From: Caryophanales bacterium
GTDB taxonomy: Bacteria > Bacillota_I > Bacilli_A > RF39 > UBA660
DNA length: 64,000 bases
Assembly: GCA_016282155.1 (NCBI GenBank)
Contig: JAEEJY010000033.1
Span: 1-64,000, forward strand
Direction of reading: 5' to 3'
This document shows positions 711 through 63,517 of the stretch, piece by piece. The first letter of the stretch is position 1. Each line of letters starts with the position of its first letter. The notes beneath the pieces are model-generated. The model saw only the letters and a list, made by a program, of their open reading frames with translations, was not told the origin of the DNA and made no database searches. Both the position numbers and the translations under genes were made by a program.

Positions 711-739
711 ATTATATCATATATCGAACAATAAGTCAA
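711..739 (-). promoter_or_regulatory. Sigma70-type promoter of the gmk operon
   Basis: Reading the minus strand, TTGACT (-35, 739-734), a 17-nt spacer and TATAAT (-10, 716-711) are preceded by TG, giving an extended -10 (TGATATAAT). It lies 30 nt upstream of the gmk start. Unlike most leftward promoters here it has no hairpin around the -10, which fits because no gene lies upstream. Confidence 0.85.
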
Positions 740-1308: not shown

Positions 1309-1337
1309 TTGACAAATAAGTTATAATGTGTTATAAT
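1309..1337 (+). promoter_or_regulatory. Perfect consensus sigma70 promoter for the RNA polymerase operon
   Basis: TTGACA at 1309-1314, a 17-nt spacer and TATAAT at 1332-1337, with TG one base before the -10 (extended -10). A perfect match to the housekeeping consensus, 40 nt upstream of the first gene of the operon. The phage polymerase is therefore predicted to be made early by the host enzyme. Confidence 0.93.
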
Positions 1338-1377: not shown

Positions 1378-1545
1378 ATGCTTGAAAGATTAAGACAAGA
1401 ATATGATGATTCATCGTATAAGCAAGATAATAAAGCATTAATTTTATCGCCAACAGAAAATGAAATAGAATATTCTTATGGTCTTCTTGAAGATATTTAT
1501 GATTATATAAATAACAAGTTCGGTTTACCTCTGGAGGAAGAATGA
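1378..1545 (+). CDS. Small acidic protein upstream of RNA polymerase
   Basis: 55 aa, ATG 1378 behind AAAGGAG. The sequence is acidic and Tyr-rich (MLERLRQEYDDSSYKQ at the start, PLEEE at the end). Its stop overlaps the polymerase start as ATGA (1542-1545), so the two genes are translationally coupled. A polymerase cofactor role is possible but only suggested by the coupling. No family recognised. Confidence 0.75.
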   Translation: MLERLRQEYDDSSYKQDNKALILSPTENEIEYSYGLLEDIYDYINNKFGLPLEEE

Positions 1546-6919: not shown

Positions 6920-6993
6920 GGAATATTAGTTTAAAATGGCGAAAACGTCGAATATAAAGTCGAAAATATAGGTTCAAGTCCTATTATATTCCA
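6920..6993 (+). tRNA. tRNA-like gene with an 8-nt anticodon loop
   Basis: Acceptor arms GGAATAT (6920-6926) and ATATTCC (6986-6992) pair over 7 bp. T8-A9 are present. The D-arm is GTTT/AAAC with GG in the loop. The T-arm is ATAGG-TTCAAGT-CCTAT. The anticodon arm is abnormal: only TCGA/TCGA (4 bp) closes, leaving the 8-nt loop ATATAAAG, and one extra T lies between T-stem and acceptor. It may be a divergent phage tRNA, a decoy or a decaying gene. Isotype not assigned. Confidence 0.5.
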
Positions 6994-51396: not shown

Positions 51397-51425
51397 ATTA
51401 TATCAAAAATAAAAAAAGTTGTCAA
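51397..51425 (-). promoter_or_regulatory. Early promoter whose -35 lies in a terminator arm
   Basis: Minus strand: TTGACA (51425-51420), 17-nt T-rich spacer, TATAAT (51402-51397) with TGA before it. The -35 is part of the right arm of the terminator hairpin of the preceding operon (51414-51445). Confidence 0.88.
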
Positions 51426-51445
51426 GTATTTTTTTGACAACTTTT
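51414..51445 (-). terminator. Intrinsic terminator overlapping the next promoter
   Basis: AAAAGTTGTCAA (read on minus, 51445-51434) pairs with TTGACAACTTTT (51425-51414) around an A-rich loop and runs into TTTATTTTT. It ends the 54267-51451 operon and its second arm supplies the -35 of the next promoter. Confidence 0.85.
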
Positions 51446-51450
51446 AAAAA

Positions 51451-51855
51451 TTAATTTTCTTCTTTAACTTCTGAAACTTTTTCAAAAATATAATCTATTA
51501 ATTCTTTAGTATCTTCTTTTGCTTCATTTACATTTTCTACAGTTACAACAGATGCAATCAGCATTTTAGTTACTGTTTTAGATGTAGGAACTGCTATTGA
51601 TAATGTTAAAGATATTATAAAGATTATTACTGTTGAAATAAATAATTTTTTAATAATTTTTAAACATTGTGGAATTTCCTTAATATTTTTTTCAAAAATA
51701 TAATAACCAAATTCATCCATATAATCATTTATCCAATTACAAATTTCAATTATTAAAGCAACAATAGATATGCTTAATATTACCATTGAAATACCCTTAA
51801 ACCAATCGCAAATATCCATTAAATAAAACCAAATAGGGTTAATATAATATGTCAT
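51451..51855 (-). CDS. Membrane protein with two transmembrane segments
   Basis: 134 aa, hydrophobic segments at about 18-42 and 68-95, C-terminal acidic helix (KEDTKELIDYIFEKVSEVKEEN). Last gene of the 54267 operon. Function unknown. Confidence 0.7.
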   Translation of the reverse strand: MTYYINPIWFYLMDICDWFKGISMVILSISIVALIIEICNWINDYMDEFGYYIFEKNIKEIPQCLKIIKKLFISTVIIFIISLTLSIAVPTSKTVTKMLIASVVTVENVNEAKEDTKELIDYIFEKVSEVKEEN

Positions 51856-51867
51856 AATTTTCTCCTT

Positions 51868-52110
51868 TTATAATATATAATCTATATATTTATGTCTATT
51901 ACCACGAATATTATCATTAGGGGGAATATAATGTATTATCTTTATATAAGAGCCATTTTTAAATTGCAATACAATATCTTCTTTATTCTCAATATCCTTT
52001 TTAAAAACGATTATTTCACTATTTGGCATAGATATAGCCTTAATTAATGCTCTCAAACCGCCTAGATAATATTTACTTGAGTTATTTATTCGTACTTCCA
52101 AATCCACCAA
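51868..52110 (-). CDS. Small hypothetical protein
   Basis: 80 aa, non-ATG start (TTG or GTG near 52110) inside the 3' end of the dUTPase gene (29-nt overlap). Alpha/beta sequence (YYLGGLRALIKAISMPNSEIIVF). No family recognised. Coupled to dUTPase. Confidence 0.55.
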   Translation of the reverse strand: MVDLEVRINNSSKYYLGGLRALIKAISMPNSEIIVFKKDIENKEDIVLQFKNGSYIKIIHYIPPNDNIRGNRHKYIDYIL

Positions 52111-52528
52111 TTCTTTCTTTATCTAAATTTCCATTATCAGCAATAAGATAATTAATAAACATTCCTTGTGCTATTCTATCTCCCTTATGAATGTACTGAA
52201 CTGTATCAGAAATATTTAATAAGAATATTCCAATATTACCATCATTGCTCTCGTTTCCATAGTAATCACTATCAATCCAACCTTGTGAATTTGCTAACAT
52301 AAACTTACCGCCCATAGAACTACGAACATTTAAAATCAAACCTTCATTGTCTTGCATATAAGCCTTTACATCTGTCCAAATTTTACATATTTCATTAGGT
52401 TTAACTTCATAATCCTTGTTAGCATAAAAATCATATGCCATAGCCTTTTTAGTTGCTCTAGTAGGTAAAATAGGACTACCTTCTGTTTTCTTAAATTCTT
52501 CTTTTACTTCTTCAAATCCACGAATCAT
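52082..52528 (-). CDS. dut: dUTPase (dUTP diphosphatase)
   Basis: 148 aa, normal length for the trimeric dUTPases. All five motifs are visible: KKAMAYDFYA (I), NVRSSMG (II), GWIDSDYYG (III), KGDRIAQGMF (IV) and GGFGSTNK (V, P-loop-like C-terminus). It hydrolyses dUTP to dUMP and keeps uracil out of DNA. Start ATG 52528 behind AAAGGAG. Confidence 0.93.
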   Translation of the reverse strand: MIRGFEEVKEEFKKTEGSPILPTRATKKAMAYDFYANKDYEVKPNEICKIWTDVKAYMQDNEGLILNVRSSMGGKFMLANSQGWIDSDYYGNESNDGNIGIFLLNISDTVQYIHKGDRIAQGMFINYLIADNGNLDKERIGGFGSTNK

Positions 52529-52637
52529 ATGAACTCCTTTTTCTTTATTCTTTTTATTGTGTGTGGTTAAATAACCTAAAATAAAACTAATTAATGTACC
52601 AATGCCAAAGTAAAATTAATTTAATAAAATCACTCAT
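52529..52637 (-). pseudogene. Remnant or frameshifted tiny membrane protein
   Basis: An ATG at 52637 with ribosome binding site gives only 16 codons (MSDFIKLILLWHWYIN). One base skipped after codon 9-10 would continue as FGIGTLISFILGYLTTHN..., a transmembrane segment, ending in frame with the dUTPase start. A +1 frameshift or a decayed membrane gene. Confidence 0.35.
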
Positions 52638-52640
52638 TCT

Positions 52641-52949
52641 TTATTTTCCTTCTTTTCCTTTAGAAATATCAATATCATACCATTCAATATTTCCGTCTTC
52701 GTCTTCTACTTCAATGCATAGTATTTCTTTATCTTCTTCAATATTTATATCAAATAATGTACTCGTAAATCTTTCATTTGGAATTTCTTCAAAATGAAAG
52801 TAAGTAAAATAATTTTCCAATTCGATTTCTTTTATTGTGTATGTTTCTCCTATTTTTAATGATTTATATTTAAAAGTTGGAAAGATTTTTAAAATACATT
52901 TTGCTTTTAATTTATCATATTTGAATGTTAATTTTTTAGCCTTCTTCAT
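52641..52949 (-). CDS. Hypothetical protein
   Basis: 102 aa. Basic N-terminus (MKKAKKLTFKYDKLKAKC), beta-rich middle (SLKIGETYTIKEIELE), acidic end. No family. Within the early operon. Confidence 0.65.
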   Translation of the reverse strand: MKKAKKLTFKYDKLKAKCILKIFPTFKYKSLKIGETYTIKEIELENYFTYFHFEEIPNERFTSTLFDINIEEDKEILCIEVEDEDGNIEWYDIDISKGKEGK

Positions 52950-52961
52950 TTATTTCTTTTA

Positions 52962-53150
52962 TTATTTTCCTTTATCTGCTTCTATAATTGTTGATGCATC
53001 ACCTTCTGCAAGTCCTTTGTTTTGTAATGATTCGATAATTGCTTTGAATACATCGTCAACAGTTAGGCAATTATCAATCAATAATTCTTTGTATTTCTGT
53101 CTTTTAGATGCATCTTCTAGTGTTGCAATAAAAGCATCAGCATCAATCAA
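52962..53150 (-). CDS. Small hypothetical protein (TTG start)
   Basis: 62 aa, LIDADAFIATLEDASKRQKY, a start common to many small phage proteins (RLIDADA). TTG start at 53150 behind GGAAGA. Unknown function. Confidence 0.55.
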   Translation of the reverse strand: MIDADAFIATLEDASKRQKYKELLIDNCLTVDDVFKAIIESLQNKGLAEGDASTIIEADKGK

Positions 53151-53197
53151 TCTTCCGTGTCCTTAAGGTCAATACCCATTGTATTTAATTTGTAGAT

Positions 53198-53587
53198 TTA
53201 CTCGCTTTCCTGTTGTTCAATCATCTTTGCGCCACAGTTAAAACAATAATGATTTCTCTTTAGTGTATTTGTGTAATCTCCTACTGTTTCGTTAAAGTCC
53301 ATAGTGTCTGAATTATACGTTATTCTTGTTTTAATTACTCCACATTCAGAACACTTAATTGCTATTCTATCCCAATTATCAGGCTGTTCTCTTGGTACAA
53401 ATTCAGCAACCCAATGACCTATGTTTTGATTTTCAAGTGCTTCTATAGCAATATCAATGGCTTCTTCATCAAGTTCTATATCATCTGCTACCATTTCAAA
53501 TGTTTCACTTGCTCTTAATGCCTTTTTTGCCATAGTGGCTGAATCCTTTATATTTTCTAGCCTTTGAATAACTTCTTTTGTTGTCAT
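53198..53587 (-). CDS. MTxxEAI-type zinc-ribbon protein
   Basis: 129 aa. MTTKEVIQRLENI, then IAIEALENQNIGHWVAEF, then CSEC and CFNCGAKM. Same layout as 51101: N-terminal helical module, linker and zinc ribbon. Likely an early regulatory or takeover protein; unknown. Confidence 0.7.
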   Translation of the reverse strand: MTTKEVIQRLENIKDSATMAKKALRASETFEMVADDIELDEEAIDIAIEALENQNIGHWVAEFVPREQPDNWDRIAIKCSECGVIKTRITYNSDTMDFNETVGDYTNTLKRNHYCFNCGAKMIEQQESE

Positions 53588-53844
53588 TATTCATTCTCCT
53601 TAATATAATTATCTATAATTTTTATTGCAGTCTTTAAGCCTTTGACTTCATATTCTTCTGCTAAATTATTTGGTAAACATTTTTCTGCAATGAAGTTTAT
53701 ATTTTCCTTAATCTTTTCAAATTCTTCTTCAAGTGGTATGCCGTTTGCTATTAACCGAAACGGCTTATAATCACTTTTATTTTTTCGCACTTCATACTTT
53801 AATATTTCGACATAATCTTTATCTACATCAATTACTAACTTCAT
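53587..53844 (-). CDS. Small MKLVIDVD-family protein A
   Basis: 85 aa. MKLVIDVDKDYVEILKYEV is nearly identical at the start to the next protein (53828). The C-terminus (GLKTAIKIIDNYIKENE) differs. Stop and next start overlap by one base. Confidence 0.65.
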   Translation of the reverse strand: MKLVIDVDKDYVEILKYEVRKNKSDYKPFRLIANGIPLEEEFEKIKENINFIAEKCLPNNLAEEYEVKGLKTAIKIIDNYIKENE

Positions 53845-54040
53845 CTTTATTCCTTTTTATTTGTTTAATATATGATTTAACAACTTCTTCATTTATAGGG
53901 TCTTTCATATGTATAAGAAAATTTTCGAGTAATATTCCATTTCTTACACTTTCCCATATTACTTCGCCTGTATCAGGCCAGTAGATTTCCCCTTTGCATT
54001 CATTATAAATTTCTTCATCTACATCAATTACTAATTTCAT
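53828..54040 (-). CDS. Small MKLVIDVD-family protein B
   Basis: 70 aa. MKLVIDVDEEIYNECKGEIYW; paralogue of the neighbouring 53587 gene by its N-terminus. Overlaps it by 17 nt. Adjacent duplication followed by divergence. Confidence 0.65.
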   Translation of the reverse strand: MKLVIDVDEEIYNECKGEIYWPDTGEVIWESVRNGILLENFLIHMKDPINEEVVKSYIKQIKRNKDEVSN

Positions 54041-54267
54041 TCTTCTTCCTCGATTTCTGACTTGTACTTGTCGATTTCCTTATAGAACGCTTCAGATTTG
54101 CTTGTATCGTTAGTTAATATAGTAACCTCATATTCATTAGGTAACTCTAAACTCATAACGCTATAAAGGCTTTTAGCATTAATATCGCCTATCTTAACAT
54201 CTTCGTTATACTTACTTGTTATTACTATGAATTTACCACAATTCTTTTTTGTTAAATAAACTTTCAT
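54037..54267 (-). CDS. Small hypothetical protein
   Basis: 76 aa, MKVYLTKKNCGKFIVITSKYN, alpha/beta, acidic C-terminus ending EIEEEE. First gene after the 54309 promoter, with the ribosome binding site just inside the right arm of the promoter-terminator element. Confidence 0.65.
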   Translation of the reverse strand: MKVYLTKKNCGKFIVITSKYNEDVKIGDINAKSLYSVMSLELPNEYEVTILTNDTSKSEAFYKEIDKYKSEIEEEE

Positions 54268-54280
54268 ATTAATCTCCTAA

Positions 54281-54338
54281 AAAAATACTTTCCTTAACTG
54301 ATATATGCATTATATCATAAGGAAAGTATTTTTGTCAA
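54281..54338 (-). promoter_or_regulatory. Promoter embedded in a terminator hairpin
   Basis: A 16-bp inverted repeat (54281-54296 and 54318-54333) with a T7 run on the minus strand terminates the nrdD/nrdG operon. The promoter sits in it: -35 TTGACA (54338-54333), -10 TATAAT (54314-54309) in the loop, 18-nt spacer. A transcript starting here lacks the left arm and so cannot form the terminator. Confidence 0.82.
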
Positions 54339-54354
54339 GTATTTTTTTTAACAT

Positions 54355-54828
54355 TTATGAAATTTTTATTGCGTATTGATTTGGTGACGCTAATTCAACT
54401 CCTAATACTTCATCAAAATGATGTTCTTGATTAGGAATGAATCTACCAAACTTAATTATAATATTTGGATATTGTTTTAATTGATTAAGTTGTTCTGAAA
54501 TTTCATTTGGATAATATCCTGTATAAATAACTATATCATCATCTACATATAATCTAAAAGCATTTATTAGTAATAATAAATCTTTCCAACTATCAAATGG
54601 TTCAAGCCCACCGAAAACTATTGCTTTAGTAAGATTGTTTTGTAGGTATTTGTTTATGATATTGTCATATAAAATTTCTATATCTTGTGATTTCGCAAGT
54701 TCACTATTTTGGCAAACTTGCGAACCACATTCCTTATCACATTTAAAAGAACATTTCGGAAAACCTATTAACATAGAAGGTTTCTTATAATTTGTAAAAT
54801 CTTCTGTTAAAATTGTTTTTACTTTCAT
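54355..54828 (-). CDS. nrdG: Anaerobic ribonucleotide reductase activating protein (radical SAM)
   Basis: 157 aa. CSFKCDKEC GSQVCQN at about 28-42 carries the cluster cysteines, with spacing C-x3-C-x3-C instead of the usual C-x3-C-x2-C. VFGGLEPFDSW and YTGYYPNEI are the SAM-binding motifs of NrdG. It generates the glycyl radical on NrdD. Its start overlaps the nrdD stop. Confidence 0.85.
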   Translation of the reverse strand: MKVKTILTEDFTNYKKPSMLIGFPKCSFKCDKECGSQVCQNSELAKSQDIEILYDNIINKYLQNNLTKAIVFGGLEPFDSWKDLLLLINAFRLYVDDDIVIYTGYYPNEISEQLNQLKQYPNIIIKFGRFIPNQEHHFDEVLGVELASPNQYAIKIS

Positions 54829-56591
54829 TATATAGATAACTGCTTTCTATCTTCAAATTCTGCTCTCTTACCACGATTGAAGTTTTCTACTTCTCTCAAG
54901 TATCCAGTGATTCTTTGATATTTTCTTAATTTGCTCTTACATATGGGACACTTATCAACTATCTCTTTTACATATCCGTGTTCATTACAATATCTTGATA
55001 TGGGCGATAAACTAATATAAGGAACACCATAATTAGAAAGTGTATTCTTTACAATCTCTTTAGCGTTATCTCCACTGATTCCACCTTCAAGATAAATATG
55101 AATTACAGTTCCGCCTGTAAACTGCTTCTGTAATGACTCTTGATGTTTAAATGTTGTGTCAATATCTTCAATAAGTTTAACAGGGATATGACAAGAGTTA
55201 GTATAATAACAATCATTTCCCTTACCTTGAGTTATGATATCGGGATAATCTTTTTTATCTTTAAGTGCGAGTCTATAACAAGTTGATTCAGCAGGGGTTG
55301 CTTCGTAATTAAATAGAACACCTGTTTCCTCTTGATATTCAATGAGTTTACTTCTAATATGTTCACCAACTTCTTCTGCGAATGCTTTACCTTTTTCTGA
55401 AATGATATTTGAATTATCATCAAAGAAGTTCTCGCACATTTCATTCATTCCAATAACACCGATTGTAGAGAAATGATTCTTAAGAGTTCCTACATATTCT
55501 ATGAAAGCAGGAATTGCATTAGTTTCAATAATATTCTTCTCTAACCAATCTCTTTTCATTACTAAACTCTTTTTAGCAACGTCTAAATAATAATCTAATT
55601 TCTTAAAGAACTGCTCTTTATCTTCTTTAGATTCATAAGCAATTCTAGGAAGGTTAATAGTTACTACACCGATTGAGCCAGTGCTATCACCACTACCAAA
55701 TAACCCACCATTTCTCTTTCTTAATTCTTTAAGATTAAGGGCTAATCTACAACACATACTTCTAATATCTTCAGGGTTCATATCTGAACTTAAGAAGTTA
55801 GCAAAATAAGGTGTGCCGTATTTCCCTGCTAATTCCCAAAGTAATTTGTTGTTAGGGTTATCCCAATCAAATCTCTTGTGAATATTATAAGTAGGAATAG
55901 GATAAGCAAATAATTTATGCTCACTATCACCTTCTAACATAATCTCAAAGAATGCTTTATTTAACATATCCATTTCTCTCTGACAAGAACCATAAGTAAA
56001 ACTTTCAAGTTCTCCACCGATAATAACATATTCGTCTAACATATCACTAGGGGGTGTCAAATCGAATGTTAAGTTTGTAAAAGCAGGTTCTGCACCCATA
56101 CGGCTATTTGAGTTGATACTAAAGATAAAGTTCTGCATATTTTGTTTTACATCATCATATGTTAAACCATCTTTCTTGATAAAAGGTGAAAGCAATGTAT
56201 CAAAACCATTTAATGCAACTGCGCCTAAAATCTCATTCTGAAAGATTGTCATAAGGTTGCTAATCTGATTTAAAGCACTATCAAAGTGTTTAGCAGGTGA
56301 AGATGTAGGCACGTTAGGAACACCCTTAACACCTTTTAAAAGGATATCTTTTAATGAATATCCACAACAGTAAAGTGACATACCACCTAAATCGTGAATA
56401 TGTATGTGACCTGTTACATAGGCTTGTGCGATATCTTCTGTATAAACTTCTCTTAACCAATAATCTTTACTTACTTCTGTTGTAATATATTTATTTAAAC
56501 CACCAAAACTAAAAGGTGAATTTGAATTTTCTTTAACTCTCCAATCTTGATTTTTTAAATATGGCTCTACGATATTTTTACTGCTTTTCAT
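54828..56591 (-). CDS. nrdD: Anaerobic (class III) ribonucleoside-triphosphate reductase
   Basis: 587 aa. It lacks the N-terminal ATP-cone of many homologues. Typical motifs: HIHDLGGMSLYCCG, ANFLSSDMNPEDIRSMCCRL, GSIGVVTINLPRIA, and a zinc-binding CPIC near the end. The C-terminal glycyl radical site is RITGYLREVENFN with Gly563. It reduces NTPs to dNTPs without oxygen. It overlaps nrdG and the glutaredoxin-like gene. Confidence 0.93.
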   Translation of the reverse strand: MKSSKNIVEPYLKNQDWRVKENSNSPFSFGGLNKYITTEVSKDYWLREVYTEDIAQAYVTGHIHIHDLGGMSLYCCGYSLKDILLKGVKGVPNVPTSSPAKHFDSALNQISNLMTIFQNEILGAVALNGFDTLLSPFIKKDGLTYDDVKQNMQNFIFSINSNSRMGAEPAFTNLTFDLTPPSDMLDEYVIIGGELESFTYGSCQREMDMLNKAFFEIMLEGDSEHKLFAYPIPTYNIHKRFDWDNPNNKLLWELAGKYGTPYFANFLSSDMNPEDIRSMCCRLALNLKELRKRNGGLFGSGDSTGSIGVVTINLPRIAYESKEDKEQFFKKLDYYLDVAKKSLVMKRDWLEKNIIETNAIPAFIEYVGTLKNHFSTIGVIGMNEMCENFFDDNSNIISEKGKAFAEEVGEHIRSKLIEYQEETGVLFNYEATPAESTCYRLALKDKKDYPDIITQGKGNDCYYTNSCHIPVKLIEDIDTTFKHQESLQKQFTGGTVIHIYLEGGISGDNAKEIVKNTLSNYGVPYISLSPISRYCNEHGYVKEIVDKCPICKSKLRKYQRITGYLREVENFNRGKRAEFEDRKQLSI

Positions 56592-56793
56592 TGTCTCTCT
56601 CTCCTATCCACTTCATAGCATTTGCGTAATTCATAAGTTTGCCATCAACTTCAAGAGTTGGTGCTGTCATAATTCCCTTTTCTGACATAATATCAATATC
56701 AGTAATGGTTTCAAATTCAATATTTGATTGTTTAAGTTTCTTTTCTAATATAATGCAATTTGGACAATTAATAGTATATAATACTACCTTCAT
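56578..56793 (-). CDS. Glutaredoxin/NrdH-like redoxin
   Basis: 71 aa. Active site CPNC at residues 10-13, TAPTLEVDGK for the cis-Pro loop. Small redoxin fold. It overlaps the nrdD start by 14 nt, so it is the likely electron donor or activation partner of the reductase. Confidence 0.8.
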   Translation of the reverse strand: MKVVLYTINCPNCIILEKKLKQSNIEFETITDIDIMSEKGIMTAPTLEVDGKLMNYANAMKWIGERDNEKQ

Positions 56794-56807
56794 ATTCTAG
56801 TCTCTCC

Positions 56808-57011
56808 TTATATTACATAAATTTCTATATAGTTGTCAACTTCGTTTACACAATCATAAACATCCGCGACTTCTCTTTCCAATTCATTTATTGGAATATC
56901 ATTTATTGGGTAATTTCTTACATCTACTGTTCCATCTCGATTATATTCCATTATCCAAACTTCTTTATTCTGTTTTTTTCTAATGTTTCTTATTATGTTT
57001 TTCACTTTCAT
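56808..57011 (-). CDS. Small hypothetical protein
   Basis: 67 aa. Basic N-terminus MKVKNIIRNIRKKQNKEVW, then an acidic C-terminal half. No family. Between the hydrolase and redoxin genes. Confidence 0.6.
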   Translation of the reverse strand: MKVKNIIRNIRKKQNKEVWIMEYNRDGTVDVRNYPINDIPINELEREVADVYDCVNEVDNYIEIYVI

Positions 57012-57046
57012 AATGGCGACATTTAATGAATACTCTCCTTTCTTAA

Positions 57047-57700
57047 TTAGTAGAAATGATGAACTGCGTCATCACTAAATATGTACTGACTGTTGCTAAA
57101 GGTTTCTGTCTTTTTGCCACTATGAAAATATAAAGCCCCTTGTGTAGTATCTTCAAACATTATTGCATATTCTACTGCAAGTCTAGTTGAATCATCAATA
57201 TTAGTTCTATGATAAGCAAATTGATTAGGGCTTGTAATAACATCATAAACATTATCCTTAAATTTATCACTGTTTACTCTGTTCAATATTACATTGGCTA
57301 CATTAACCTTTGCTAAAAAAGAACAATCGTGACATTCTGTTTCTACACAACGGCAAAGATATTCAATATCATTTTGAGAGTAGTAAATATATATATCGGC
57401 ATTATTTTCAATTTCTTTATAGAGTTTGTAATATAATTCTAAATCGTATTCTTTAATTGGTTCAATTAATTTTAATTTGTCTTCTTTGCTAATGTCATTA
57501 AGTTCTTCTAGTTTTGTAGTTACGCTATCTAATTCTGTTTTTAATCTTTCAATATCATTATCTTTTTGTTCTAATTCTATTTCGTATTCTTTAATCTGTT
57601 CTTCTAATTCAATATTCTGTTCGCTTGATGTTATTGTATATACAAATAAAAATAATAATATAACTCCGTATAAAACAAAAAGTATGCTTAATTTCTTCAT
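57047..57700 (-). CDS. SleB-type cell wall hydrolase, membrane-anchored
   Basis: 217 aa. N-terminal transmembrane segment (about 4-22), coiled coil (about 28-80), then a hydrolase 2 (SleB/CwlJ-like) domain: CRCVETECHDCSFLAKVNVANVILNRV, NQFAYHR, ALYFHSG. The conserved Glu (VETE) is the expected catalytic acid. It lies in an early operon, far from the late endolysin, so a role in wall remodelling or another stage is possible. Confidence 0.8.
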   Translation of the reverse strand: MKKLSILFVLYGVILLFLFVYTITSSEQNIELEEQIKEYEIELEQKDNDIERLKTELDSVTTKLEELNDISKEDKLKLIEPIKEYDLELYYKLYKEIENNADIYIYYSQNDIEYLCRCVETECHDCSFLAKVNVANVILNRVNSDKFKDNVYDVITSPNQFAYHRTNIDDSTRLAVEYAIMFEDTTQGALYFHSGKKTETFSNSQYIFSDDAVHHFY

Positions 57701-57718
57701 ATTTTATCCTCTAAAATA

Positions 57719-57776
57719 ATATAGGTGTATTTAAATCATACACCTATATTATACCACATATTGATTAATTTGTCAA
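57719..57776 (-). promoter_or_regulatory. Early promoter with 15-bp hairpin covering -10 and transcript 5' end
   Basis: Minus strand: TTGACA (57776-57771), 17-nt spacer, TATAAT (57753-57748), TGG upstream. The repeat ATAATATAGGTGTAT, with its complement nearby, begins inside the -10 and includes the transcription start. The transcript would start with a stem-loop. It also acts as a possible end for helicase transcripts. Confidence 0.82.
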
Positions 57777-60029
57777 GTCTTTTTCTACATTTTGTGTTAA
57801 TAAATCTAATAAAAATGTATCTCGATTATCATTTACAACTACATTTAAGGCTTTTTCGTATGTTGAAATATTACCGATGTCAATACAAGATTTTTTATTT
57901 CTTGTATCGGCTACATATAACAAACCTCTTGACAACATTTTATGATGTGATTCAGAAATAATATTGATTGTATAATCTGTAGTTGAGCCTTGAGCCTTAA
58001 AGGTGGAAATTGAATATCCTAACAGCAACTGACCCATTACTTTAGATTTATTCATATAGATTAAAGTTTCATCAAACTGAACAATAATTCCTTCCTTACC
58101 TAAAACTTCTCTAATAACACCACTCTGTCCATTTACAACCATACTATCGGCTACATCATCTTCGGATAATACACCTAATTCATCTTCTTGCATTTTCTTA
58201 TAGGCTTCATAAGATACTGCGTGATAATCATTTTTGGTATTTAAAACGATATCGCCAACTCTAAATGTAATTGTATTTCCGTTTATCTTTCTTGTGATGA
58301 CTACTTCATTGGCTTTAGGTGGGTTAACTTCTGCTTGAATTGCATTGTTGATTGCATAAGTTCCCATAGAACCAATATTCATAGGTGCAAGAATCAAAAT
58401 GTCTTTAGGTTTAATTCCTTTATTAAGAAGTTTATGATACTGCTTTAGGACTTCATTAGGGATATCATCTTCTTCGGTTTCGATGAATTTGTAGTTATCA
58501 CAGACTGAATAAACATTATCTTCGTGCTTAACCATTTCTTCATCATTAAAAAACGATTTTCCTTGTCTTACATTGGTTGCTACAAAGAGTGAACCATTTG
58601 ACTTGTATCTAAATACTTCTGTTAACATTGTCATAGGAATGATGTTAGAAGTAATAAAATCATCAAATATCTTTCCTAAAGAGATACTAGGTATCTGTGC
58701 AGGGTCGCCTACTAATACAACTCTCATATTAGGGTTAATAATTGTATTAATTAACATACAGAATACGTCTAACCCAACCATACCAAATTCATCTACAATT
58801 AACACATCGGAATTGATTTCTCCTTGTAATACTCTTTTATGAATTGTAGATGCTTCCTTGCCCGTCTGTTCCGCTAATACTCTACTTGCTTTTCCAGTGG
58901 GACAAACTAACGTATATGTCATATTATGGTCATCTAACATTCTAATAAGTGCTTTAATTGAGAATGTTTTGCCAACACCACTAAAACCTGTTAATAAGCA
59001 AACTTGACTTTCGCAGAATACTTTTAATGCGCTTAACTGCATATCACTCAATTCAGAACCATCTAAATTAACCTTATAATCGCGCCAATTTAAGTCCAAT
59101 TTACTATCATTCGATAATTTCTCCATCACCCAATTTCTAATGCGAATTTCGGCTAAATATGTACTCATAAGGGCAATATATTTATCGTTATCATCATAAT
59201 AAATATTAGCACTATTTACACATACGTCTTTGATTAATTTTAATAGTCTGCTATCATAATCGTGAGCCTTTTCCCAAAGAATTGAGCCTTTGATTCTACT
59301 AGAACCTTGAGATTCATTTTCGTGAAGAATATCCATAATCATTGCTTCACATCTCTGTTCAGATTCTACTAATTCAGTTCTAAAGGAACAAAGTAATTTA
59401 TCTGTAGATTCAAATGAGCGTCCTAACACTTCGATTAATACATAATAAGGTGTTTCATTAAGTGCAGTTTCAACATTTTCATTTGAATAATACTCTTGAT
59501 ATAACTTCTTACAATCGCTTATATTAAACTGATAATCTGTATATTTATTTAAAATATGGATATACTTATATTTTTCATTTAATTCTCTTACATAAGCGTT
59601 TAAATAAGATTCTCCTACGTTATAAATCTTCTTAACATCAATCGAGTCTTTACCTTCTTTAATTACTTTAGCGATGAAATTGGGATAAGCGTCAAGAATA
59701 TTATTTGCTTGATTAGCCGTAGTAAAACTTGTTAAAATTTCAAAAGATTCTTCTCTGCTTAATTCATCAAGATTAATCTCTGTTAAACTAGGGCAACTAA
59801 CTACACTATAACTAGTGCCGTAATTATTAGTCGATTCCTCTCTAATATTAAGTTCGTACTGTTCGTCTACAGATAAGAATCCTAACTCTCCCACTAGAGA
59901 AATATTACCATACTTATTTGTCTTAACCTTTTTAATATAATCGGCAAAAGGCTGAAATGCTAAAATCTTATAACTGCCGTTGCTGTAAATCTCTCTAATA
60001 ATTTTTCCTTTGACTTGAATTTCGCTCAT
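57765..60029 (-). CDS. RecD-like SF1B helicase
   Basis: 754 aa from ATG 60029 (AAAGGAAG upstream; an upstream ATG at 60062 has no such site). Walker A GFSGVGKT (about 357-364), DE box DVLIVDEFGMVG, motif III VLVGDPAQIPS, and C-terminal YSISTFKAQGS with the SH3-like VVNGQSGVIREVLGKEGI region. The N-terminal about 330 residues are a helical/OB-like region as in RecD2/TraA. It unwinds DNA 5'-3' by homology. Confidence 0.85.
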   Translation of the reverse strand: MSEIQVKGKIIREIYSNGSYKILAFQPFADYIKKVKTNKYGNISLVGELGFLSVDEQYELNIREESTNNYGTSYSVVSCPSLTEINLDELSREESFEILTSFTTANQANNILDAYPNFIAKVIKEGKDSIDVKKIYNVGESYLNAYVRELNEKYKYIHILNKYTDYQFNISDCKKLYQEYYSNENVETALNETPYYVLIEVLGRSFESTDKLLCSFRTELVESEQRCEAMIMDILHENESQGSSRIKGSILWEKAHDYDSRLLKLIKDVCVNSANIYYDDNDKYIALMSTYLAEIRIRNWVMEKLSNDSKLDLNWRDYKVNLDGSELSDMQLSALKVFCESQVCLLTGFSGVGKTFSIKALIRMLDDHNMTYTLVCPTGKASRVLAEQTGKEASTIHKRVLQGEINSDVLIVDEFGMVGLDVFCMLINTIINPNMRVVLVGDPAQIPSISLGKIFDDFITSNIIPMTMLTEVFRYKSNGSLFVATNVRQGKSFFNDEEMVKHEDNVYSVCDNYKFIETEEDDIPNEVLKQYHKLLNKGIKPKDILILAPMNIGSMGTYAINNAIQAEVNPPKANEVVITRKINGNTITFRVGDIVLNTKNDYHAVSYEAYKKMQEDELGVLSEDDVADSMVVNGQSGVIREVLGKEGIIVQFDETLIYMNKSKVMGQLLLGYSISTFKAQGSTTDYTINIISESHHKMLSRGLLYVADTRNKKSCIDIGNISTYEKALNVVVNDNRDTFLLDLLTQNVEKDLTN

Positions 60030-60049
60030 AATACTTCCTTTCAAATAAA

Positions 60050-60102
60050 AAACTCTTTTCAAATGACATAGATATTATATCAAAATAAAAAGAGTTTGTC
60101 AA
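60050..60102 (-). promoter_or_regulatory. Helicase promoter inside a terminator-like inverted repeat
   Basis: TTGACA (60102-60097), 17-nt spacer, TATAAT (60079-60074) in extended -10 form. A 10-bp repeat (AAACTCTTTT and AAAAGAGTTT, 60097-60088 and 60059-60050) encloses the -10, and its second arm runs into TTTATTT. Same layout as 54281 and 63473. Confidence 0.78.
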
Positions 60103-60116
60103 GAGAAAAATAAAAA

Positions 60117-60141
60117 AAATCCATAGAAAAACTATGGATTT
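60117..60141. terminator. Intrinsic terminator after the tRNA array
   Basis: ATCCATAG pairs with CTATGGAT around AAAAA (60119-60139), with T-runs on both sides. It ends the leftward tRNA and tRNA-like operon. Confidence 0.85.
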
Positions 60142-60151
60142 TTTATTTAAT

Positions 60152-60272
60152 TAGATAGTAAGCCCACCAATCGCCTTTTTGTCGGTGTGTAAGTTTAAAA
60201 CACATATATTGTGTTCTATCTGTTAAAGCATCTCCGCTTCGTCTTCAATAGTTGCGACCAACATACTATCTA
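60152..60272 (-). ncRNA. Structured RNA, last element of tRNA-like array
   Basis: TAGATAGTA (60152-60160) pairs with TACTATCTA (60264-60272), 9 bp, around about 100 nt with an internal AACAC/GTGTT hairpin. It lies between tRNA-Trp and the terminator in the same operon. No T-arm. A short frame (MCFKLTHRQKGDWWAYY) is open inside, but coding is doubtful. Function unknown. Confidence 0.4.
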
Positions 60273-60280
60273 CTTAATAA

Positions 60281-60353
60281 CATACACTCAATGACTCGAA
60301 CCTTGCCTTACAGTTTTGGAGACTGTCGTGCTTACCACTAACACTAAATGTAC
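60281..60353 (-). tRNA. tRNA-Trp (CCA)
   Basis: All arms fit: acceptor GTACATT with AGTGTAT, T8-A9, D-arm GTGT/GCAC with GG in the loop, anticodon stem ACAGT/ACTGT with loop CTCCAAA (anticodon CCA), variable AAGG, T-arm CAAGG-TTCGAGT-CATTG. 73 nt. Reads UGG codons; it is not a UGA suppressor. Confidence 0.9.
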
Positions 60354-60359
60354 TTATAT

Positions 60360-60475
60360 TGCATAGGTAAGGACTTGAACCTTACACGATTAGGATTTCA
60401 ACTGACAGTACCTAATCTTATTACTGCATCTTCTCTAAAAGACAATCTTTGCGTTTACCTATTCGCCACTATGCA
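60360..60475 (-). tRNA. Long-variable-arm tRNA-like gene (Leu-like D-arm)
   Basis: Acceptor TGCATAG/CTATGCA, D-arm like Leu (GCG...GGTAAACGC), variable arm GATTAGG/CCTAATC, T-arm with GTAAGG-TTCAAGT-CCTTAC. The anticodon arm is odd: 8 extra bases follow the D-arm and only TCTT/AAGA closes a 6-nt loop containing TAG. 116 nt, 6-bp T-stem. Isotype not secure; it may be non-canonical or decayed. Confidence 0.55.
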
Positions 60476-60478
60476 AAT

Positions 60479-60570
60479 TTAAAATAAAGATGATAAGTTA
60501 TCGACTATTCTTATCTGACTTGCGACTGCTTTATGTCGAAAAGTTCAGCCTTGCCATTTCTTTATTTTAA
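60479..60570 (-). ncRNA. tRNA-like structured RNA without T-arm
   Basis: An 11-bp closing stem (TTAAAATAAAG 60479-60489 with 60560-60570). Inside on the minus strand: AAATGGC, a CGAC/GTCG stem with an 8-nt loop ATAAAGCA, and GATAAG/CTTATC. Parts resemble the 6920 element (AAATGGC, then TCGA and ATAAAG). No TTC T-loop. Unknown RNA. Confidence 0.4.
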
Positions 60571-60671
60571 CTACCACAGTAGGATTCGAACCTACATTAA
60601 CATATATGCTCTTATATGTTGACCCCTTATCATTGGGTTGATGCAAAACTCTGCCATTGAGTTATGTGGTA
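60571..60671 (-). tRNA. tRNA-like gene, Ile-like anticodon arm (GAT)
   Basis: Acceptor TACCACA/TGTGGTA, T8-A9, D-arm ACTC/GAGT, T-arm GTAGG-TTCGAAT-CCTAC. A long variable arm AACATATA/TATATGTT is unusual for Ile. The stem ACCC/GGGT closes ATGATAA (anticodon GAT), but 10 extra bases lie between D-arm and this stem. First gene after the 60685 promoter. Confidence 0.6.
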
Positions 60672-60684
60672 ACTTTATAATGAT

Positions 60685-60713
60685 ATTATATCATATCTAA
60701 ATTAATTTGTCAA
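60685..60713 (-). promoter_or_regulatory. Promoter of the tRNA and tRNA-like array
   Basis: Minus strand: TTGACA (60713-60708), 17-nt spacer, TATAAT (60690-60685), extended -10 TGATATAAT. A small palindrome (ATGATATAATATCAT) covers the -10. It lies 14 nt upstream of the first tRNA-like gene. Confidence 0.88.
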
Positions 60714-60716
60714 CAA

Positions 60717-61097
60717 TTATTTTTTATATTTTTCAAAATTATTTTTGTCTTCAATATATTTAGACTTATCATTTGTATGAATTTCAAATGTAACTCTATT
60801 AAAGATATAATTGTCTATGCTTATATAATCTATTGCTTCTGTTCTTGTCAATTCTAATACTTTAACTTTATAATTGGTTTCATCAATCATATCGTTAAGA
60901 TTGTATTCATTTTCAAAAAATATATCTGTAGAATACGGAGTAAAGAGTCTACTTGTTGCAATAAGCGCACATACAGCAACAAAAACTAATAAACCACCAC
61001 CAAAATCTCCATCATTTATTATACTTATTATAGTTAATATAATAAATAATATTGTTAATATTGCAAAAACAAAAAATATTACTGTAGCCAATATCAT
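60717..61097 (-). CDS. Membrane protein with two transmembrane segments
   Basis: 126 aa. Hydrophobic segments at about 3-25 and 33-52, then a soluble acidic C-terminus (about 60-126). Last gene before the tRNA promoter. Function unknown. Confidence 0.65.
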   Translation of the reverse strand: MILATVIFFVFAILTILFIILTIISIINDGDFGGGLLVFVAVCALIATSRLFTPYSTDIFFENEYNLNDMIDETNYKVKVLELTRTEAIDYISIDNYIFNRVTFEIHTNDKSKYIEDKNNFEKYKK

Positions 61098-61107
61098 ATC
61101 ATTCTCC

Positions 61108-61890
61108 TTAATTCTGAATATTTCTTAATAACTCTCTATCAAACATAGGCTGAAATCTCATAAGTTCATTGCAAATAAGTTCGCAACACTGCTTTACTTC
61201 TGGATTTGCACCACCATTAATATTTCTCTCTTTGTAAACGTGTGCAAATTCTGTAAGATTTACCTTGAATACAAAATCACTAGGAAAGCCTAAATTGTAT
61301 AAACCACGTTTTACATCTTGATTATCTTCACTACCTTTAACAATATATCCATTAAAAGCACGAACATAATCTTTTCCGTTATAATGAATTTCTTGTGGCA
61401 TTTCAATATCAAGATAATCCAATACTGCGTCTGTAGTTAACACTTTGTCTGCATAATAATCTGACATATTCTGTAATTTGGTTTCGTCTTTAATATTCTT
61501 GATTCTTGAACTTGTTCTAATAATTCGATTATTAAATCTACAAGCGTGTGCATCCCAATCGTCTTGACCTGCTCTATGAAGTCCATATACTGTACAAGAA
61601 ATATCAATAAATCTCAACATTGTAATATGTTTCTGACCCCAAGTGCATAACATCTTAAGCCACTTATTGTACTGTTCCTCATCTGCTTTAGCATCTTTAA
61701 GTAATGCACCAATCCACTTATTATTTGATTCGATACCATCTAATCTGTAATGTCTTCCGTATTCGTCATTTACTGCCTTGCAAATTCGTCTAACTTCATT
61801 CTCAAGTTCTCTTGTTAAAGTTCCCCTTGATACAAACATACTACAAATCGCGTCATCAATGCCTGTAATACTATTAATGTAAACTTCCAT
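61108..61890 (-). CDS. ThyX-like (FAD-dependent thymidylate synthase-like) protein
   Basis: 260 aa from ATG 61890 (AGAGGA upstream; 61935 has none). The C-terminal FVFKVNLTEFAHVYKERN ... EVKQCCELICNEL resembles the NxRxxLHFxxxR and AQxEIR region of ThyX. The FAD motif region is diverged: ThyX has RHRxxS, here LHRAGQDD with SSRI downstream. Fits the nucleotide genes around (dut, nrdD, gmk). Activity uncertain because motif residues are lost. Confidence 0.5.
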   Translation of the reverse strand: MEVYINSITGIDDAICSMFVSRGTLTRELENEVRRICKAVNDEYGRHYRLDGIESNNKWIGALLKDAKADEEQYNKWLKMLCTWGQKHITMLRFIDISCTVYGLHRAGQDDWDAHACRFNNRIIRTSSRIKNIKDETKLQNMSDYYADKVLTTDAVLDYLDIEMPQEIHYNGKDYVRAFNGYIVKGSEDNQDVKRGLYNLGFPSDFVFKVNLTEFAHVYKERNINGGANPEVKQCCELICNELMRFQPMFDRELLRNIQN

Positions 61891-61901
61891 ATGATTCCTC
61901 T

Positions 61902-62210
61902 CTATTCTATATATTCTTTTACTTCGTCCAAACAATCAGGGCAAGAATATAAAATTAATACTTCATATCCATCTTCATCAATATCCTTATGTAATTCATC
62001 AACTGTAAAAATCTTACCACAAGACTTACACTGATAAAGTTTTAAAGGGTCTTCATAATACTCACCAAATGAATCACTATGACAACAAGGACAATATGAC
62101 ATTCTCTCGTAAGCAGGTTGACCCCAACATTCGCCACGATATTCTTCTTCATATACAATATCGTCTTCTTTAAAAATGCTACCACAGTCCCAACATTCGT
62201 ATAACTGCAT
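61902..62210 (-). CDS. Double zinc-ribbon protein
   Basis: 102 aa. Two Cys4 sites: CWDC ... CPCC (about 6-42) and CKSC ... CPDC (about 60-93), each on a beta-ribbon. Acidic linkers. Likely nucleic acid or protein binding; no family. Confidence 0.7.
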   Translation of the reverse strand: MQLYECWDCGSIFKEDDIVYEEEYRGECWGQPAYERMSYCPCCHSDSFGEYYEDPLKLYQCKSCGKIFTVDELHKDIDEDGYEVLILYSCPDCLDEVKEYIE

Positions 62211-62211
62211 A

Positions 62212-62607
62212 TTAACTCCTTAATTTAAAATATCCATATAGACACTTATCTCCACAATCCCAAGTGTCATAATAACTACCATCTCTTACTGAAGACCAAT
62301 GATTCGCCAAACTCAAAACATAAACACCATCTTTGTTTTTCTTTGCAAATTCTTTTACTGTTGGTCTTTTAGTGCCTTTTTTGTTGCTTATTCCAATATA
62401 TTCAAAGCCTAATTCTGACATTACTTCTTTGTATAATTTTAAAGGCATACAACTAATAGGACACTGATATTTAATTTCATATGGTACAATTATATTAAAA
62501 GTTTCTATCCAAGTCTTATCAAAGACATTACATAACGCTCTAATAACACAATCGCCATATTCGTCTTTTGTATCTAAATGATTCGGCTGAAAGTAAGTAT
62601 ATCCCAT
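62212..62607 (-). CDS. Papain/C39-like cysteine protease-like protein
   Basis: 131 aa. GDCVIRALCNVFDKTW (Cys at about 20), then SLANHWSSVRDGSYYDTWDCGDKCLYGYF with H at about 103 and D at about 113, in the spacing of papain-like Cys-His-Asp/Asn folds. Small size and the absence of a propeptide suggest a phage accessory. The fold call is from motif spacing only. Confidence 0.55.
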   Translation of the reverse strand: MGYTYFQPNHLDTKDEYGDCVIRALCNVFDKTWIETFNIIVPYEIKYQCPISCMPLKLYKEVMSELGFEYIGISNKKGTKRPTVKEFAKKNKDGVYVLSLANHWSSVRDGSYYDTWDCGDKCLYGYFKLRS

Positions 62608-62608
62608 T

Positions 62609-62842
62609 TTATTCTTCCTTTTCTTTGATTACAGTTCCATCATTTAATGTAAAAGGTTCATCTACCTTACCATAAAATGATTCAACAAATCTTTTATCAA
62701 ATTCCATAGTTTCGTTATTAGGATATAGAAGTCTATACTTATCACCATTGAAGCCTACAATCAATCGTCTAGTATTGGGGTTAATTTCTTCTCTAACTGT
62801 TAATCTAATAACATCACCAACTTTAAATCTGTTCTCGTCCAT
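62609..62842 (-). CDS. Small SH3-like protein
   Basis: 77 aa from ATG 62842 (GGAAGGAGATAC upstream). RFKVGDVIRLTVREE and KYRLLYPNN are KOW/SH3-like beta strands. Overlaps the upstream gene by 20 nt. Unknown. Confidence 0.65.
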   Translation of the reverse strand: MDENRFKVGDVIRLTVREEINPNTRRLIVGFNGDKYRLLYPNNETMEFDKRFVESFYGKVDEPFTLNDGTVIKEKEE

Positions 62843-63455
62843 CTGTATCTCCTTCCTTGTATAATGATGTATCAATAAGTGAAAGTAAATTCTTTCTTTC
62901 ATCAATACTTCTCATAAATTCTGCATAAAGGGTTTTTTCTGATTCGGTTTTTAATTTAACAACATAAAATATATCATCCAACTGTTTATTTGGATAAGTT
63001 TTTACGTTTAAATCTCTTAAAATAATCGAGGTTGTATTATTTTCTTTATCCACATTTATTATACGACCATCAAAGAGATTTATTATACCTGCCTTACATT
63101 TAACAACAGTTCCAACACTAAATTTATCTTTATTACTACTTTCAATCAGTTCAAGACTACTTAATGCTACCAAATAACATTCATCGTTATAAGTGTTCTG
63201 AATAAACGCAAGTTCTTCACCATCATTCTTACTTCTACTTGCGATATGAATTATTTTAAATTCATTATTATAATCTTCCCTTGTCTTATAATTAAAAGTG
63301 TCATCTCTGTCACAAGGAATATTATTATAAACAAATTTATAAATTAGTTCCTTATCTGTTATATTATTGATTACCCATTGTGCATAATTGGGAAAACTTC
63401 TTCCCCAATTATTAACTTTAACTAAATCACCTTTTTCAAATTTAACTATTGCCAT
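62823..63455 (-). CDS. SH3/KOW-like repeat protein
   Basis: 210 aa, with repeated beta stretches KGDLVKVNNWG (about 8-20) and VGTVVKCKAGIINLFDGRI (about 115-135). C-terminal helix. No enzyme motif. First gene after the 63489 promoter. Unknown role. Confidence 0.65.
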   Translation of the reverse strand: MAIVKFEKGDLVKVNNWGRSFPNYAQWVINNITDKELIYKFVYNNIPCDRDDTFNYKTREDYNNEFKIIHIASRSKNDGEELAFIQNTYNDECYLVALSSLELIESSNKDKFSVGTVVKCKAGIINLFDGRIINVDKENNTTSIILRDLNVKTYPNKQLDDIFYVVKLKTESEKTLYAEFMRSIDERKNLLSLIDTSLYKEGDTDGREQI

Positions 63456-63472
63456 AATTTATCTCCTTTAAA

Positions 63473-63517
63473 AATCGTCTATATGCGTATTATAACATAT
63501 AGACGATTATTTGTCAA
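63473..63517 (-). promoter_or_regulatory. Promoter with -10 inside a terminator loop
   Basis: TTGACA (63517-63512), 17-nt spacer, TATAAT (63494-63489), extended -10. A 13-bp inverted repeat (63473-63485 and 63496-63508) encloses the -10 and is followed on the minus strand by TTTTT. The -35 overlaps the stop region of the upstream gene. Confidence 0.82.

Follow-up and report, generated by a model that had tools for sequence, protein, structure and literature searches.

Single cases of promoter-terminator overlap are already known from the PeSLs of T4-like phages, T4 gene e, phiX174, and Salmonella tufB-secE. In a PeSL (promoter-early stem-loop), the stem-loop lies upstream of the promoter and not around it. 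For these elements of T4-like phages, PMC4503421 and PMC5348500 cite Arbiol 2010 and Comeau 2014. In T4, leader hairpins that accompany late promoters of gene e, soc, 49, and I-TevI act by blocking translation (PMC3014915). An overlap of promoter and terminator in one intergenic region of phiX174 is mentioned in PMC9135205, and PMC7055797 mentions an inter-operon terminator-promoter overlap at Salmonella tufB-secE with a reported effect on expression and fitness. For Kayvirus 515A1, an early promoter consensus and 42 terminators were derived from RNA-seq (PMC7698491).

We analyzed a window of 64,000 nucleotides with which an 82-kb phage contig (C38) begins; the contig runs on to 81,936. On C38, 8 of 17 consensus σ70 promoters overlap a same-strand hairpin followed by a T-run, and no Rfam family covers these elements. 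Like PeSLs, they lie between small early genes and combine a stem-loop terminator with an early σ70-like promoter; unlike PeSLs, they are nested, with nesting the commonest arrangement and arms that are not common to the copies. In the 50 kb of RB49 that we examined, three terminators end 15 to 16 bp upstream of the −35 in tandem, and one of the four sites nests (3201, with the −10 between the arms). The T4 gene e type resembles the C38 sites in having its promoter inside the hairpin region, so that the started RNA is predicted to lack the 5′ strand and the upstream RNA to fold it; however, the C38 promoters are consensus σ70 promoters, their hairpins carry a T-run, and the Shine-Dalgarno sequence lies inside the 3′ arm at 75644 only, being outside the stem at the other seven sites. 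The phiX174 case, as mentioned, concerns one element in a small phage, compared with eight on C38 plus compensatory evolution in relatives. The Salmonella case concerns few conserved operons of a bacterial chromosome, and the likeness lies in the overlap. Kayviruses (phage K, vB_SauM-515A1) have the promoter consensus TTGACW-17-TRTGNTATANT, as in C38, and overlap is not mentioned in the available parts of their descriptions (PMC7698491, PMC9241854). In our analysis, 7 of 51 promoters of 515A1 were nested, against 0.19 expected, and most were not nested; the seven lie at 28046 and 32872 (minus strand) and at 119144, 125137, 131655, 133202, and 136756 (plus strand) of MN047438.

Geometry and predicted folding of the nested sites

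The preliminary description placed an inverted repeat with a T-run around a promoter at 54281-54338, 60050-60102, and 63473-63517, and all three are present. Each has a minus-strand TTGACA-17/18-TATAAT promoter whose spacer is the 5′ arm; past the −10 comes the 3′ arm, which leads into the T-run, and the stems measure 12 to 16 bp. At the first site (54281-54338), the −35 TTGACA (54338-54333) and −10 TATAAT (54314-54309) accompany arms at 54333-54318 and 54296-54281, followed by the T-run, a Shine-Dalgarno sequence, and an ATG at 54267. The second site (60046-60102) precedes a RecD/Dda-like helicase gene and has its promoter at 60102-60074, arms at 60097-60086 and 60061-60050, and a T-run. Separate from it, 11 bp upstream of its promoter, lies a conventional terminator (60114-60144, not assigned to one strand) with a 13-bp stem, a 5-nt loop, and a T-run on both strands. 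The third site (63471-63517) joins a promoter at 63517-63489 to arms at 63508-63495 and 63486-63473, a T-run, and the Shine-Dalgarno sequence AAAGGAG. The −35 and spacer had been taken together as one arm, which is correct for the spacer at all three sites, but the −35 hexamer lies mostly outside. Nor does the −10 occupy the loop at 54338 and 60102, where RNAfold puts it in the upper stem and the predicted stability (−19.3 and −16.1 kcal/mol, respectively) is raised for that reason.

The pattern, described as recurrent, extends to more sites than these three. At 57716-57776 on the minus strand, the hairpin begins inside the −10 of the promoter at 57776-57748 (arms 57752-57738 and 57730-57716, 15 bp and perfect), its T-run is interrupted (TTATTTT), and of the 12 nt in the core 5′ arm just 4 remain in RNA from +1. 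At 51397-51445, also on the minus strand, a terminator with arms at 51445-51434 and 51425-51414 includes in its 3′ arm the −35 TTGACA of the promoter at 51425-51397 and has its T-run in the promoter spacer. Three further nested sites lie beyond the window at 66710, 71849, and 75644 (C38 coordinates; minus 64,000 for L009). The five nested window sites show 12 of 12 matches to TTGACA and TATAAT at a spacing of 16 to 18 nt, with the TG of TGn present. At all eight sites, the hairpin and then the T-run lie on the promoter strand, with stems of 11 to 18 bp and T-runs of 4 to 7. The distance between arms ranges from 4 to 24 nt, and arm sequences differ from copy to copy, the copies sharing little beyond the two hexamers. 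Given AT-rich stems throughout and T-runs that in some cases are short or broken up, some sites may terminate weakly.

The nested sites use three registers, and in each the promoter-started RNA keeps little or none of the 5′ arm. Hairpins of read-through RNA were predicted at −12.3 to −20.5 kcal/mol, compared with 0 for RNA from +1 (−1.8 in one case), transcript starts being placed 7 nt after the −10. Geometry and predicted energies thus fit, at all eight sites, the earlier proposal that RNA from upstream folds the hairpin and RNA started inside cannot. A role as 5′-leader stabilizer was rejected, as the promoter-started RNA is predicted to lack the hairpin.

We consider it likely that these sites are composite promoter-terminators that insulate neighboring early operons by stopping upstream transcripts. 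A polymerase coming from the upstream operon would transcribe the whole inverted repeat, upon which the hairpin would form and the U-run would release the RNA. A polymerase starting at the embedded σ70 promoter would, given the geometry, begin inside or beyond the repeat; its RNA, with little or nothing of the 5′ arm, should form no hairpin, and the next operon would be transcribed. With both elements in a common 30 to 60 bp, one operon could end and the next begin in the intergenic gaps of 53 to 102 bp found at seven of the eight sites. This would show how a phage can close one operon and open the next within the same 50 bp. Where the Shine-Dalgarno sequence is in the 3′ arm, as at 75644 and several sites of relatives, the ribosome site of the read-through RNA may also be hidden, adding a second level of insulation.

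Frequency of nesting and junctions without a repeat

In shuffles that preserved the −35 and −10, a mean of 0.06 and a maximum of 1 nested site was expected on C38, and none of 200 shuffles reached 8. A generic terminator scan demanding 3 G-C pairs and a loop of 3 to 8 found only two minus-strand hairpins at 50 to 64 kb (51445 and 60144), with no excess over shuffles. The signal is the overlap of hairpins with promoters, not the number of hairpins, and predictors requiring GC-rich stems or short loops would miss most such terminators. Beyond 51 kb, eight of nine minus-strand terminators overlap or abut a promoter, the remaining one is intragenic, and none of the nine sits wholly downstream of a start. 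Most leftward early-operon junctions in this phage appear to have their start signal folded into the stop signal of the preceding operon. The assembly contains a second promoter-rich, phage-like contig, C29, which we examined as a candidate companion; none of its 28 promoters was nested. A TATCA motif suspected downstream of the −10 was dropped, as its enrichment was weak and not shared.

As the preliminary description stated, the promoters at 711-739 (minus strand, in a divergent region) and 1309-1337 (plus strand, upstream of a polymerase-like gene at 1542-4142) have no hairpin. Its accompanying rule, that it is promoters with no upstream gene that lack the repeat, suits these two but not 60713, 69316, 74485, and 78918, each of which directly follows a same-strand gene. 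The first of these, a consensus minus-strand promoter at 60685-60713, follows a same-strand gene ending at 60717, precedes tRNA genes, and lacks any terminator. Since 4 of the 13 leftward promoters preceded by a gene on their own strand are without any terminator, the rule is a tendency and not strict, and insulation is evidently not required everywhere.

Related phages and alternative explanations

Scanning viral contigs with the helicase as single protein returned no relative, nor did a nucleotide search of phage records; primase alignment gave distant loci only, and a genome-contig scan gave one locus. Helicase matches in related bacterial genomes, considered as copies of this phage, were rejected, as they look like cellular RecD-type genes (25 to 35% identity, about one per genome). 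Among close relatives, 9 of 26 promoters were nested (0.12 expected), and in phage record L203, 4 of 8 (0.05 expected). Close relatives have promoter and hairpin in an unchanged register, but with other arms, at three syntenic junctions; both hexamers are retained despite near-complete arm replacement. Compensatory changes altered 6, 7, and 5 pairs on both sides, compared with 0 to 2 pairs in a control with the register slid. L201 site 16724, syntenic with 60102, has the same register and different arms, and the DnaB junction in L375/L376 has yet another unrelated arm sequence. Against the insulator reading, one nested repeat of a relative, in L375 at 3229, lacks a T-run. A fold kept with different letters looks like a real compact insulator. 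The preliminary description had tied its reading to conservation in related phages, and this held for close relatives; in the more distant Enterocloster phages, most corresponding junctions are tandem, with a conventional terminator directly upstream of the promoter. This suggests that termination plus initiation at these junctions is old and that the packing differs.

An explanation that we regard as unlikely is that the hairpins are translational, as in T4 gene e, with read-through RNA masking the Shine-Dalgarno sequence of the next gene, RNA started inside exposing it, and termination secondary. The T4 precedent has its promoter within the hairpin (PMC3014915), and besides 75644 the Shine-Dalgarno sequence is within the 3′ arm at L201 9484, 12224, and 16724 and at L126 4274 and 6372. 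Some such sites in relatives have a poor T-run, L201 9484 among them, so the function there may include masking of the ribosome site. On C38, however, the Shine-Dalgarno sequence follows the T-run at 54338, 60102, 63517, and 57776, the hairpins at 51425, 66710, and 71849 end within the promoter spacer with no ribosome site nearby, and all eight sites carry T-runs.

Compaction without selected insulation, in which short gaps squeeze terminators and promoters together and overlap is a by-product, seems to us quite improbable. It would suit the gap lengths above and those of 63 to 88 bp in Kayvirus, as well as the tandem placement in Enterocloster relatives, and it is compatible with the mechanism; yet the syntenic register is kept while the arms change almost completely, and a random squeeze would sometimes put a hairpin wholly downstream of a start, as none does. 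Perfect inverted repeats centered on promoters are typical of operators, but it is disfavored and very improbable that a DNA-binding regulator of the early promoters, whether from phage or host, uses them as operators: no two sites of the phage have the same arms, syntenic sites differ in their arms as well, the spacing varies, and T-runs follow on one side. Equally remote are PeSL-like recombination cassettes serving mainly to shuffle gene modules. The composite of terminator and early promoter between small early genes is what PeSL denotes (PMC4503421), but the copies have unlike arms.

Nested sites in other phages

In a wider set, 20 of 173 promoters were nested, against 0.9 expected. Beyond the insulation proposed for this phage, there may be a general class of self-insulating promoters of about 50 bp in phages of low-GC bacteria, with interchangeable registers, repeatedly invented, and blocking at two levels (termination and, where the Shine-Dalgarno sequence is in the arm, ribosome access); we put this forward only tentatively and hold it somewhat less probable than its opposite. 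The nested arrangement predicts that in Gram-positive phages many promoters and terminators annotated apart together form single elements, and such elements would be natural designs for compact insulated promoters. As Kayvirus has both nested sites and published RNA-seq, the idea is testable on existing data. Rumen phages also have nested sites, and the Enterocloster phages L033, L034, and L035 carry the 57776-type architecture in the corresponding position, which follows the helicase.

Promoters nested in predicted terminators on the phage contig

Contig JAEEJY010000033.1 (C38) is 81,936 bp long, its first 64,000 bp being the window, and belongs to a 1.17-Mb bacterial assembly that is low in GC and incomplete. 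By gene content, C38 is a tailed phage: besides a terminase and an exonuclease, it has a RecD/Dda-like helicase, a RecJ-like exonuclease, and a primase, together with a replicative helicase resembling DnaB; the last has mixed family matches, and copies in relatives are annotated as DnaB-like. Genes run rightward from ~1.5 to 48 kb, and those between 50 kb and the contig's right end run leftward. The whole of C38 was scanned for TTGACA/TATAAT promoters with at most one mismatch, TGn being required if one base was off. Eight of the 17 promoters found overlap a same-strand hairpin and T-run and are termed nested: 51425, 54338, 57776, 60102, and 63517 in the window and 66710, 71849, and 75644 past it. 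The three leftward sites of the preliminary description (54281-54338, 60050-60102, and 63473-63517) all proved correct on re-examination of the sequence. When both hexamers were fixed and the remainder was shuffled with dinucleotides preserved, 200 trials gave a mean of 0.06 nested promoters and a maximum of 1. None of 28 promoters on contig C29 of the same assembly was nested, nor were eight in loci on its other contigs. C29 (27 kb, 28 near-consensus promoters, mostly extended −10) is a second promoter-dense element.

A generic terminator-only scan showed no excess of terminators; the unusual feature is their overlap with promoters rather than their number. Past 51 kb, a promoter-independent scan of the minus strand returned nine strong hairpins with T-runs: seven share sequence with a promoter, 60144 adjoins one, and the ninth is inside a gene. 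The T-run at 63517 fell slightly under the threshold of that scan and was recovered by the promoter-anchored one.

The nested sites adopt three registers. At 54338, 60102, 63517, and 75644 (type B), the spacer serves as 5' arm, the −10 precedes the 3' arm, and the T-run falls within the leader. At 66710 and 71849 (type A), the −35 sits within or beside the loop, and the spacer holds the 3' arm and T-run; at 51425, also type A, the −35 itself forms part of the 3' arm. At 57776 (type C), the hairpin begins within the −10. At all eight sites, the assumed start point removes the 5' arm or falls past the hairpin. RNA arriving from upstream folded at −12.3 to −20.5 kcal/mol; when folding began at an assumed start 7 nt past the −10, with the 3' end unchanged, the value was 0 kcal/mol, except at 57776 (−1.8). 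In Kayvirus, transcription from promoters with the same consensus begins 6 nt past the −10 (PMC7698491).

Conservation and wider occurrence

Close relatives were found by alignment-guided scans: L201 (helicase 48%), L126, L127, and L138 (DnaB 54-56%), and L375/L376. Every one has nested sites. The conservation check proposed in the preliminary description came out in its favor for these close relatives, with arms changed and pairing retained at three syntenic junctions. Upstream of the DNA polymerase, C38 66710 and L201 13290 have an identical register and a GACAA loop, and 6 of 11 pairs differ on both sides with 0 broken. Upstream of the helicase, five pairs are altered on both sides between C38 60102 and L201 16724, and the junction after DnaB in L126 and L127 keeps one register with seven such pairs; a register-slid control gave 0-2. 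L375/L376 have a further, different arm at the DnaB junction. C38 itself has its nested site for the DnaB-primase interval at 75644, two small genes farther along. In these few pairwise comparisons, arms that were replaced while pairing was retained are difficult to account for unless the fold is under selection.

L375 (MUGC01000045) is listed as part of a Thermoplasmata archaeon assembly and is identical at the junction to L376, a viral contig; since L375 is a phage contig and its sigma-70 promoters are bacterial, it was probably misbinned with the archaeon. In the L375 promoter at 3229-3275, an inverted repeat of 11 bp surrounds the −10 and is not followed by a T-run, which does not fit termination.

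The closest described relatives, the ~100-kb Enterocloster bolteae phages PMBT24, CB457P1/P2, and CB473P1-3, share ~40% helicase identity and partial synteny with C38. Their DnaB-primase junction, and that upstream of the sigma factor gene preceding the helicase, have a conventional terminator followed directly by a promoter. The exception lies downstream of the helicase gene, where the hairpin (12-16 bp, with a T-run) begins at the −10 or immediately past it, as it does at C38 57776 (L033 7549-7619, L034 3551-3624, and L035 3885-3955; counterparts of window 57716-57776).

In a larger phage set gathered through DnaB, 20 of 173 promoters were nested versus 0.9 expected. In a frequent form there, the 3' arm is TTGACTT (AAGTCAA...TTGACTTTTT). 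This form occurs in at least 120 stretches of all viral contigs, and a control with the first arm reversed gave 44 stretches across the full collection; among the matches listed, pairing beyond the arm averaged 4.8 further pairs in target sites versus 1.2. Kayvirus 515A1 has 7 of 51 promoters nested versus 0.19 expected from plain shuffles, all seven, by its gene tables, in 63-88 bp gaps between same-strand genes. In RB49, where promoter-early stem-loops (PeSLs) have reportedly been described, the 50 kb scanned contained one clearly nested site (3201) and three tandem ones, with the terminator preceding the promoter.

Predicted function and known parallels

Thirteen leftward C38 promoters are preceded by a gene or tRNA on the same strand. 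Of these promoters, eight are nested, 80521 has a tandem terminator only, and four (78918, 74485, 69316, and 60713) have no terminator; therefore, the earlier claim that the repeat is absent only where no gene lies upstream stands as a tendency and fails as a strict rule. We take termination to be the main predicted function, because T-runs follow the hairpins at all eight C38 sites and type A sites are distant from any ribosome site. The same two observations count against hairpins acting chiefly by hiding a ribosome site, as at T4 gene e, where the site is hidden in longer early transcripts and exposed in late transcripts started inside (PMC3014915). Some sites in relatives, with a poor T-run and a Shine-Dalgarno sequence within an arm, do resemble gene e, and there masking may be an added layer to termination. 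That the repeats are operators is disfavored, since every repeat has arms of its own.

Composite or overlapping terminator-promoters are already known, as reported for PeSLs (cited in PMC4503421), phiX174 (PMC9135205), and Salmonella tufB-secE (PMC7055797). Phrase searches of open-access literature with few subscription journals found no description of promoters nested in terminators as a repeated rule in phages.

Other features of the contig

An 866-aa protein (phrog_8308; window 1542-4142, plus strand) is 25% identical over 469 aa to a PMBT24 protein annotated as an RNA-dependent RNA polymerase. It has NGLDFDSDA in place of NGCDFDGDA in PMBT24, like the catalytic motif DFDGD found in double-psi-barrel RNA polymerases. 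The protein is probably a single-chain phage RNA polymerase of the YonO type; Pfam and PDB searches with it gave no match. Between divergent promoters 739 and 1309, a cluster of long, very AT-rich inverted repeats (795-1123; stems 13-21 bp) is a possible origin or regulatory hub. The early region contains minus-strand tRNA genes for Trp and Ile (window 60281-60664) and for Ser, Leu, and Gln (2945-3414 of L009, the remainder of C38 past 64000). A plus-strand tRNA with an unusual loop (window 6920-6993; ARAGORN anticodon ataa, also an Rfam tRNA match) is possibly degenerate or has a four-base anticodon.
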